From Tilletiaria anomala UBC 951 (lineage: Eukaryota > Basidiomycota > Exobasidiomycetes > Georgefischeriales > Tilletiariaceae), in NCBI RefSeq assembly GCF_000711695.1, contig NW_013546891.1, forward strand, positions 1 to 42,121: a DNA stretch of 42,121 nucleotides. Direction: 5' to 3'. The position numbers and the translations under genes are program-made. This document shows, in pieces, positions 4,308 through 8,585 of the stretch. The notes under the pieces were generated by a model. That model searched no databases. It was not told the origin of the DNA and saw only the letters and a program-made list of their open reading frames with translations. Position 1 is the stretch's first letter. Every line of letters starts with the position of its first letter.

Positions 4308-6263
4308 TTACGACCGTGCAGCAGCCGGAACGCCCGCGCCATTCCCAGCGCCCGCACCCCTCCTTTCGCCTCCCCCGCCTCCTCGGCCCCCACCTCGTCC
4401 GCGCCCACGGTACCCTCCTCTGCCACCTCCGTCGCCTCCTCGCCTGTGGGACACCGTCTCTGTAAAGTTCTGCGATTGTGGGATAGCATTCGCGTGCATG
4501 GCTGCTTGCGTCGCTGGAATCACGGGTCGGCCGGCTTGCAGATGGGACGGCGCAGTGCCTGCGCTTGCACCCGCTTGCTGTTGTTGCTGCTGTCCAGCCT
4601 GTTGGGATTGCTGCTGCTGCGCTGCCTGACCATTCGCAGGAGTTTGGCCGCCGTTCTCGTGGATGAGCGATGGGGCGACGTAGAGCTTTTTGTCAATCGT
4701 ACTCGGGATCGGCTGGATCTCCGTGCCGAGCTCCTGCTCGATACGGTAAAGGTTGAAGCGGTCTTCATAGGTAATCAAGTTAATCGCGAGACCCAGGTGG
4801 CCAAACCGACCGGACCGGCCGATACGATGCAGGTAGGTCTCTGCGTTCTTGGGGAAGTCAAAATTGATGACGACGTTAACGGCTTGGATGTCGATACCTC
4901 TCGTGAGGAGATCAGAGCAGACCAAGTTGCGGCACGCGCCGTTGCGGAAGTCATGAAAGACGCGATTGCGATGCGACTGGAGCATCTTTGCGTGCGAGTA
5001 GAAGCACGAGTAGCCAAGATCGGTGATCTTCTTGGCAAGCAGCTCGACTCGGTTGGTTGAGTTGCAGAAGATGATGGATTGGTTGATTTGCAGACGAGAA
5101 AAAAGGGTGTTCAAGCAGTGTACCTTTTGCCGTTCCTCGACAAATGCGTAGTATTGTGTGACACCGCGCAGCGTGAGCTCGTCCATAAGATTGATCTCGT
5201 ATGGATTGACCATGTGCTTGTCCTTGAAGTCCTTAACTATCAGAGGAAATGTGGCGGAGAAAAGCATGACCTGGCGCTCTTTGGGTAATAGGGCGAGCAA
5301 TTGTTCCATGACTGGAGTGAATTCGGGGGATAGCAGTTTGTCTGCCTCGTCCCTTTTGTAGCCAATCCGCGCAACAGTCAATATCCGAGCATACCCTACC
5401 GTTCAGGCACGGCGCGTCTGCATACTCACATGACAAAAGTGGTGCATTGCGAAAGATCTGTGACACCCTTTCCGGCCAAATCAAGAATTCTCCCTGGTGT
5501 TCCAACGAGCACGTGTACAGTCTGGCTGAGCCGCAAAATGTCGTCCTTCAACGTAGTGCCCCCGGTGGTGACCATGACTTCGACGCCGGTGTGCTTTCCC
5601 AGAGTTTTGCAGACTTGACTCGTCTGCAGCGCCAGCTCTCGTGTTGGAACAAGTAGAATGGCCTGGATCTTGTTCTTCTTGGGGTTCAAACGCTCTAGGG
5701 TTGGAATGATGTAGCTTGCTGTTTTGCCCGTGCCATTCTGTCCTCCAAGTCTGGTCAGCAAGCTTGTCCAGGAAATCATACTTTCACAACGAGACACACC
5801 TTTGCTCGCGCTAGAATATCTCTGCCAGTCAGAGCGATCGGGATGCTCGCTTCTTGGACCGGACTCGGGCGTTCTGGGTGTACACCAGCCTGCATCAGCA
5901 GGTGCTGAGTCTGGAAGCATTTGGTTCAGGACTCACCACTACAGCAGCCAAGGACCGCCCAGACAGGGGAAAGAAAGAGATGATGAGCATGCAGAACAGC
6001 AATACGTGGTGTCGAGATAAGTGATGGAGAGACAGCGTCAGTGCGATCAGATGTGGTAGAGGGAAGAACTGTCTAGGCACGCACAACCCTGCTTCAAATA
6101 TGCCCATAAGGAGCTCGCGCTTGAGATAGTAGTCTTCCCAGTCGTGGCCTTGCGTGTTGGTCACATCCTCTGTCTGTGGCCGGTCATCTTTGGGTGCGGT
6201 GGCCATCACCTGCTGTTTCCACTGGGCCTCGGACTGGCCAGCTGCTGGCCCCGCTGTCGCCAT
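4308..6263 (-). CDS. DHH1: DEAD-box RNA helicase Dhh1 (DDX6/RCK/Me31B family)
   Basis: Cytoplasmic ATP-dependent RNA helicase of P-bodies that promotes mRNA decapping and translational repression. Exons on the minus strand: 6263-6085, 5938-5937 (a 2-nt micro-exon), 5873-5800, 5737-5430, 5352-4308. They total 1608 nt, 535 residues. Motifs in order: FERPSPVQ Q-motif at 60-67, AKNGTGKT (motif I) at 84-91, [16 protein letters not shown] at 189-192, SAT at 220-222, RGID, and HRIGRSGR at 363-370. The two RecA-like domains closely resemble Dhh1/DDX6. The C-terminal tail is glutamine-rich and then RGG/glycine-rich, typical of fungal Dhh1 and of phase-separating tails. The ATG at 6263 starts [11 protein letters not shown]; the frame upstream begins with GTG, so it was not used. 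It is divergently paired with EDC3, its known binding partner. Confidence 0.95.
5937..5938 (-). other. DHH1: 2-nt micro-exon (TG) of DHH1
   Basis: On the minus strand the sequence reads ...GCTGCTGTAG, then TG, then GTGAGTCCTG.... This places two bases between a good acceptor and a near-consensus donor. The preceding exon ends GGG TT (donor GTGCGT at 6084) and the following exon starts AACGCC after CACCCAG at 5875-5874. Joining TT + TG + AA gives TTT GAA, producing FEAGFERPSPVQ, which matches the conserved Dhh1 Q-motif region residue for residue in layout. Joining the two larger exons directly breaks the frame. Flanking introns would be 146 and 63 nt. Confidence 0.7.
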
Positions 6264-7029: not shown

Positions 7030-8585
7030 ATGGCCGCGAGCAGCTTCATTGGCACATTTGTTGAGGTGCAGCTCTCGCACGGCGCTGACCTCTTCGGGTT
7101 CATCACCGCCGTCGATCCTGTAGCACAGACGCTGAGCTTCCGCGACCCTCACACCGGGCATATCAGCACACTCTCCAAGGGAGATATCGTCAATTTGCAG
7201 ATCAAAGAGGCTCCCCTGCTTGATCATCCATTGACAAAGGATGAGGCTGACAAATTGCAGGCGCAGGCCGACTTTCATCCAGCAGCGCGAGAGCTGTCAC
7301 AGCCCCCGACAAAGCCGGCAGCAGCAGCAGTAGATCATACCATAGTCCGACCGCACGACGAGAAACAGGTGCAACTGAAGCAGCAGCCTAAGGAGAAGCG
7401 AAAACAGAAGGACAAGGGTGCGCACATTCGGAGCGAAACACCGACACGTGCTGCTCAGCACGGACAGCAGCAGCAGCAACGACAGCCAAACAAAAGCGAA
7501 CGATCACAAGAAGCACAACATTCTACATGCGCAGCGGCGTATATGAAAGAATTTGACTTCCAAGCGAACTTGGATCAGTTTGACAAAAAGAAGATCTGGG
7601 AGGAGATTCGGGTGAGTTGGTATCGAGCAAGACCCCCAAAATTTGTGATTCAAGTCACCTATCTTACCTTCTGCAACCTCCATGTCAGAATTCGGACAAG
7701 ACCGATCCATCGCTGCTTTTAGTGTCTCACAATCGTGCTTCAATTCCCGTGCAGCTAGTACGCGGCCCAAATGGTATCGGGCCGGTACCTATTGGAGGAC
7801 ATCGCAACGGCGACAACGTTTCGGACTCTGCACGTGTCTCGCGTCGTCAGGTGGGAGGTGCAGGTGTGGGAGACGGAGGAGGTGCACGGAGAAGGAATGG
7901 GCAAGAAAAATTAGGGAACTACGAACCGGTTCTTAGTCCAAGTCCGCCGCCTGTGGAAGAGCGAAGGGCGGATGCAGACGCAGCCACAAGCGGCACGAAC
8001 TACGCCTTTCCCCCCATGGATGGACATGTGGCTGGCAAAATCAGCGCCAGAGTTGATAGCGAAACTCTACGAGCGGAGTTACGCGAATTGCATTTCAAGC
8101 TTACCCTGCTCCAGACGCTTTCAGGCATCACGATACACGAGCAAGGATCCAGCGGAACTAGGTCCTCGAATGGGTCTGACCACCACCAGCAGGAACAAGC
8201 CCACAGAAAGTACCAGTGTACAGTGTGGAAAGATCACAAGGCACAGGCCGAAGCACGTGAATCGGGCGGCTTGGAAGGCTGCCTCTGTTTTTCCGTCGCA
8301 GCCACCATGCAGCATCAGCAGAAAACTAAGAGGACTGTCGCTTCCCCTTTGTCTGCACATACCATGTCAACGGACGCATCGTCAGCGTCAGCAGCATCGC
8401 AGGCACAGCATGTAGCGGTCGCCATCGGGGGTTTCAGGTATCTTGGGCCCATTGCGGCTCGCAGCGATGCGACAATCATCGAGAATATGCCGGCGAAATA
8501 CAAGCAAGAGCTGAGCTTGCGCAACGAGACTGCTAGCATCTTTTTCAGGCGCCTGCGCCAGGCTGCATTCGGCGAAGCTGGGTGA
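7030..8585 (+). CDS. EDC3: Enhancer of mRNA decapping Edc3-like protein (Lsm + FDF, no YjeF_N seen)
   Basis: P-body scaffold that activates Dcp2 and binds Dhh1. Exon 1 is 7030-7611 and exon 2 is 7689-8585 (intron GTGAGT...GTCAG, phase 0), giving 492 residues. Residues 1-65 form a divergent Lsm domain beginning FIGTFVEVQLSHGADLFGFI. The FDF motif is at 175-177 within EFDFQANLDQFDKKKIWEEI, followed across the intron by NSDKTDPSLLLVSHNR. The linker between is rich in Q, K and S. The remaining 290 residues are serine/glutamine-rich. They lack the YjeF_N Rossmann-like domain that normally ends Edc3 and makes the dimer. No intron was found that would recover such a domain before the convergent NADH pyrophosphatase gene 126 bp downstream. 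An Scd6/Lsm14 relative is the alternative, but the Lsm start and FDF context favour Edc3. Confidence 0.8.

Follow-up and report, generated by a model that had tools for sequence, protein, structure and literature searches.

Plants and a fungus are already known to have exons of a single nucleotide. The 1-nt exon of Fusarium CYP621A is supported, in the available text of PMC12940212, by 20 orthologues and by SRA reads, and its origin is proposed there to lie in the loss of exon-end bases inside a conserved motif, which a cryptic exon within the intron then rescues. In plants, 1-nt exons are described for APC11 and VPS55 (available text of PMC8831610 and PMC4674806). Here we describe the DHH1 gene of Tilletiaria anomala UBC 951, which very probably contains a constitutive internal exon of 2 nt (TG, positions 5938–5937, minus strand), flanked by introns of 146 and 63 nt and completing a Phe and a Glu codon. 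Positions refer to the window, i.e. the whole stretch of DNA analysed (contig C131, 42,121 nt).

The predicted exon resembles that of Fusarium CYP621A in that it lies in a fungal nuclear gene and is deduced from out-of-phase exons within a conserved motif (PKG in CYP621A, the Q motif in DHH1). It differs in measuring 2 nt instead of 1 nt, in belonging to a basidiomycete instead of an ascomycete and in being predicted from the sequence of one species, whereas orthologues and reads are reported for CYP621A. By analogy, the loss-and-rescue origin proposed in PMC12940212 would fit the TG exon. With plant APC11 and VPS55 it shares an exon length below 3 nt, a housekeeping gene as host and the absence from reference annotations and, with VPS55, for which this feature is given, a GTRAGT donor behind the exon. 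According to the text available on them, the plant exons are conserved across land plants and verified by RT-PCR, whereas that of DHH1 is predicted from a single species. The microexon of Trichoderma Xlr2, likewise located in a fungal gene, is described as a glucose-dependent switch (PMC11121469, available text), whereas we read the TG exon as constitutive. The stwintrons of the Hypoxylaceae also involve consecutive splicing reactions in one stretch; in the accessible descriptions, however, the external intron of a stwintron is interrupted within a splice signal by the internal one (PMC9024468, PMC12403724), while in DHH1 two bases have to be kept in the mRNA. A literature search over titles and the starts of abstracts, covering few subscription papers, returned no exon of 2 nt for any basidiomycete or for DHH1, and the available portions of PMC3990503 and PMC8042270 contain nothing about 2-nt exons. 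The TG exon would therefore be a 2-nt addition to the ultra-short exons known so far.

Gene structure and the Q motif

The source assembly comprises 18.41 Mb in 202 contigs; the genome paper gives 18.7 Mb and 289 scaffolds for this member of the Georgefischeriales (Ustilaginomycotina) (PMC4056295). The best protein match of the gene is the deposited DHH1 of the same strain. We propose the following structure, which encodes 535 aa with no internal stop and in which all four introns are of the GT–AG type; the last line gives the stretch where the deposited model departs from it:

6085..6263, minus strand: DHH1 exon 1, coding part (179 nt), ending GGG TT in phase 2
5939..6084, minus strand: intron 1 (146 nt), GTGCGT donor at 6084, GTAG acceptor ending at 5939
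5937..5938, minus strand: proposed 2-nt exon TG, predicted from the sequence
5874..5936, minus strand: intron 2 (63 nt), GTGAGT donor at 5936, CCCAG acceptor ending at 5874
5800..5873, minus strand: DHH1 exon 3 (74 nt), AA CGC CCG AGT CCG, coding for (E)RPSPVQE
5738..5799, minus strand: intron 3 (62 nt), GTGTGT...ACAG
5430..5737, minus strand: DHH1 exon 4 (308 nt)
5353..5429, minus strand: intron 4 (77 nt), GTGAGT...AAAG
4308..5352, minus strand: DHH1 exon 5 including the stop codon (1045 nt)
5864..5873, minus strand: ten coding bases taken as intron end by the deposited model (acceptor CGAG), with loss of the residues E-R-P-S

The assignment to the DHH1/DDX6 family of DEAD-box helicases is based on a match to yeast Dhh1 (1s2m) that covers residues 24–415 of the query (E 1.7e-208), spans both helicase domains and the Q motif and is ungapped at the junction. 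The DEAD domain was found with 153.2 bits in the N-terminal 243 residues of the predicted protein. This score cannot tell four tested splice forms apart (152.9–153.2 bits), because the Pfam profile begins past the junction.

The last codon of exon 1 has only its first two bases, and exon 3 lacks one base. TG supplies the final base of the Q-motif Phe codon and the initial base of the Glu codon, so that joining exon 1, TG and exon 3 gives TTT GAA (Phe-Glu) and the Q motif G-F-E-R-P-S-P-V-Q. The mRNA junction would then read GGGTTTGAACGCC (junction 24-mer GAAGCAGGGTTTGAACGCCCGAGT), while the genomic DNA at the site, as assembled, is GGGTTGTGCGT. When TG is skipped and 6084–5874 is removed as a whole (junction 24-mer GGGTTAACGCCC), the frame shifts and a stop follows after 169 codons. 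When introns were retained in silico, a stop followed after 123 codons for intron 1, after 63 for intron 2 and after 122 for the two together. These results agree with the preliminary description, which had claimed that TG stands alone between a GTAG acceptor and a GTGAGT donor on the minus strand, that it is needed for the frame to run into the conserved Q-motif sequence and that joining exon 1 to AACGCC shifts the frame. Judged by their sequence, the two GT–AG introns on either side of TG are spliceable, and TG is required for the reading frame as well as for the conserved motif. As regards coding potential, intron 1 (6084–5937, minus strand) is free of stops in the frame of exon 1 and scores 0.05 per codon over 47 codons; the score of exon 3 is slightly negative (−0.15 per codon, 23 codons).

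We compared the motif among the 120 listed of 7818 homologues found. All but two of those listed have a 14-residue motif of the same length without any indel, the exceptions being the deposited T. anomala model and a protein (P0040) whose N-terminus does not include the region. The position completed by TG is Phe in 117 and Tyr in one of the 118 listed homologues with the motif, and the following position is Glu in 116 and Asp in two. The Q motif consensus is given as GFxxPxPIQ (PMC4608764, available text). The codon completed by TG probably corresponds to F66 of yeast Dhh1, because F and Q are spaced seven residues apart. In the text available of PMC5096884, yeast Dhh1 carrying both F66R and Q73A is described as an ATP-binding mutant whose P-body defect is strong, while F66R alone has a minor defect in cells and loses droplet formation in vitro.

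Splice sites and chance expectation

Splice sites were scored with 288 introns of this genome, of up to 250 nt, which had been predicted without supervision and include false positives. The training data consisted of 48 loci with 321,272 bases, including the window, after the removal of locus L001 and of three overlapping loci; the DHH1 introns were excluded from the set. Both donors next to TG are common among the predicted introns, GTGAGT ranking first (81 introns) and GTGCGT third (24 introns), and the base before the acceptor AG is C or T in 266 of the 288. At least 202 of the donors in this unsupervised set start with GTG (GTGAGT, GTGAGC, GTGCGT and others), not with GTA. Intron 2 of DHH1 has a strong donor (9.6, not exceeded in 214 of the 288 predicted introns) and a strong branch site (8.3, not exceeded in 281 of 288), GCTGATG, whose A (5895) is 21 nt away from the intron end. 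The donor of intron 1 lies under the median (6.7; 95 of 288 no higher), and its best branch-like site, GCTCATC with the A at 5984, 45 nt from the intron end, has a median score of 5.0. Both acceptors are low (53 and 47 of 288 no higher). That of intron 1 is preceded by a stretch of 128 nt which is free of AG and consists of 71% pyrimidines. As a homology control, an in-frame single-intron join was found for all 24 kinase exon pairs; 21 of these joins score above 4, one of them with a doubtful GC donor, and their lengths range from 59 to 163 nt. GTGAGT serves as donor in 12 kinase joins and GTGCGT in two. The lengths of introns 1 and 2 fall inside the range of these 21 homology-joined introns.

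In order to estimate how often such an arrangement arises by chance, we searched shuffled and genomic sequences for the motif. Within the 211-nt interval AG-NN-GT occurs once, as AG-TG-GT. AG[TC]GGT with at least 45 nt on each side was found in 719 of 20,000 dinucleotide shuffles and in 153 of 2991 genomic segments of 211 nt, the site itself excluded. When one of four strong donors (GTGAGT, GTAAGT, GTGCGT, GTGAGC) was demanded, the counts fell to 6 of 20,000 shuffles and 3 of 2991 segments, again without the site itself. A third test with the exact cut-off values was passed by the observed site and by one other. Elsewhere, AG[TC]GGTGAGT occurs at two sites in 642,544 strand-bases, i.e. about 0.0004 per interval, a rough value as it is based on two sites. 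A 128-nt run free of AG precedes 34 of 41,820 AGs and one of the 288 predicted acceptors; it is reached in 957 of 20,000 shuffles and counts as weaker evidence, because the composition is rich in pyrimidines.

In-frame splice solutions and rival explanations

We enumerated solutions with an open reading frame that use either a single intron (GT or GC donor, AG acceptor, at least 40 nt) or one microexon (GT donors, exon of at most 30 nt) and obtained 85, which were ranked by a profile of the 118 homologues that have the motif. The TG solution came first with 1050.5 bits. The second reached 1039.6 bits with a donor of −10.1 bits; lower values were obtained for a GC–AG join of 6092 to 5890, which replaces F by VHP (1039.3 bits, donor −8.2), for another solution whose donor scores −5.5 (1037.0 bits), for a GTGCCT donor at 6080 joined to 5890 (1035.2 bits, donor −1.8) and for the deposited model (1027.9 bits, acceptor −2.4). 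Ranked by mean splice score, the TG solution takes second place (18.72) after a form in which intron 1 is kept and about 55 residues are added (19.15, profile 1023.9 bits), and these two are the only ones of the 85 in which all sites score 3 or more. Among the solutions listed, the TG micro-exon alone restores the exact family sequence. Taken together, the ranking supports the reading of TG as a micro-exon at the level of sequence.

The deposited model removes a single intron of 221 nt (6084–5864) that ends in CGAG, which leaves the Q motif four residues shorter (GF-PVQE; mRNA junction GGGTTTCCGGTC, 24-mer GGGTTTCCGGTCCAA). It is the version in public use and stems from a JGI annotation that was accompanied by RNA extraction and in which 93% of the models are transcript-supported over more than 75% of their length (PMC4056295); its frame needs no 2-nt exon. 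Nevertheless, we regard it as extremely improbable that this model is correct. Its acceptor bypasses CCCAG (3.8) ten bases upstream, the bases it drops code precisely for the family residues E-R-P-S, which none of the 118 listed homologues with the motif lacks, and its profile score falls below that of the TG solution. It also cuts out a run of 24 residues rich in Gln by using a weak donor (4.3); this points to sites chosen ab initio. A very unlikely explanation is an assembly or sequencing error, by which the draft would have lost two bases from a true exon 1 ending in TTTG at the GTGCGT donor of a single 211-nt intron. Such a donor, TTG|GTGCGT, would score slightly higher than the one assembled (7.5 versus 6.7), and the draft is a 25x Illumina assembly (PMC4056295); however, the site is no homopolymer, and AG-TG-GTGAGT with exactly the missing bases would then be a coincidence of the rough per-interval frequency given above.

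Equally hard to credit as the deposited model is another in-frame intron, be it the GC–AG join, the GTGCCT join or retention of intron 1 combined with a 47-nt intron (5936–5890). All three forms have open reading frames and the last has the top mean splice score, but the donors of the other two are poor, all three lengthen a motif of invariant length in the 118 listed homologues, and their profile scores stay below that of the TG solution. Moreover, the acceptor at 5890 lies just 5 nt past the best branch A (5895), the next AGs following at 21 nt (the proposed acceptor) and 31 nt (the deposited one), and AGs very near the branch A are generally bypassed. The GTGCCT join had been listed in the preliminary description, with LCAGVHP in place of F; it does exist and was rightly considered unlikely. 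The CGAG acceptor at 5864, the GC–AG join and the retention of intron 1 were missing from that list. The expectation that gene finders would misread DHH1 proved correct, with a deposited protein reading GIFEAGF-PVQEA and an unsupervised intron finder that picked a wrong intron at this spot (5936–5738). The reading frame, the agreement with homologues, the scores of the splice sites and the misreading in the deposited model lead us to infer that cells splice DHH1 with TG kept.

Other origins and arrangements of the interval were also considered. A stwintron was rejected, since removal of the whole interval leads to the frameshift described above and TG could not remain. For a tandem duplication, introns 1 and 2 were aligned under lenient scoring, and none of 500 mononucleotide shuffles reached their score of 40. 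This score was equalled by 46 of 3000 random genomic 146-mers, and under three stricter scorings the introns are an ordinary pair, so that this origin was rejected as well. The similarity between the end of exon 1 and intron 2 is not significant (257 of 500 shuffles). A repeat or introner element was rejected, as the 211-nt interval matches the genome only at itself in a search that skips simple repeats, and one scan of viral contigs found no relative.

Predicted order of splicing and consequences for annotation

With only two bases between them, U1 bound to the GTGAGT donor would overlap with the factors that occupy the acceptor of intron 1. Because of these overlapping footprints, introns 1 and 2 of the proposed TG-exon gene are most likely removed sequentially and not engaged simultaneously. 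Intron 2 probably goes first, because its donor (9.6 versus 6.7) and its branch site (8.3 versus 5.0) are stronger and its length is more typical (63 versus 146 nt). Its removal would fuse TG with exon 3 into a 76-nt exon, before the 146-nt intron 1 leaves, so that the 2-nt exon need not be recognised as such, and it would consume the acceptor required for skipping. The reverse order would also yield a strong donor (TTG|GTGAGT, 9.5), so that the order with intron 2 first is a probable one. The TG exon might in addition act as a frame gate on DHH1, with protein made only upon complete splicing with TG kept, and the order and efficiency of intron removal could then set the level of a protein which drives mRNA decay in its turn. 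We consider such a role unlikely, although skipping and the three retention forms, which hit early stops in silico, prompt the idea.

If the TG exon is real, a central helicase of mRNA decay shows that a basidiomycete spliceosome can cope with exons close to the physical limit, and the 211-nt interval would be a compact natural substrate for testing ordered intron removal at ultra-short exons. The consequence for annotation stands apart from the splicing mechanism: a concrete error is exposed, as the public T. anomala DHH1 protein is four Q-motif residues (E-R-P-S) short. The public protein is also without the 24 Gln-rich residues, the deposited model cutting a 72-nt in-frame stretch as an intron (4559–4630, minus strand; donor 4.3 bits, acceptor 5.0), which may be either a further error of annotation or an optionally used intron.

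We also observed an EDC3-like gene divergent from DHH1 (7030–7722, plus strand), with an FDF-domain match toward the end of its first ORF that scores 23.9 bits, slightly below the cut-off of 26.1. Edc3 is a partner of Dhh1. If the neighbour is EDC3, two decapping-related genes flank one intergenic region, with about 770 bp from start codon to start codon.
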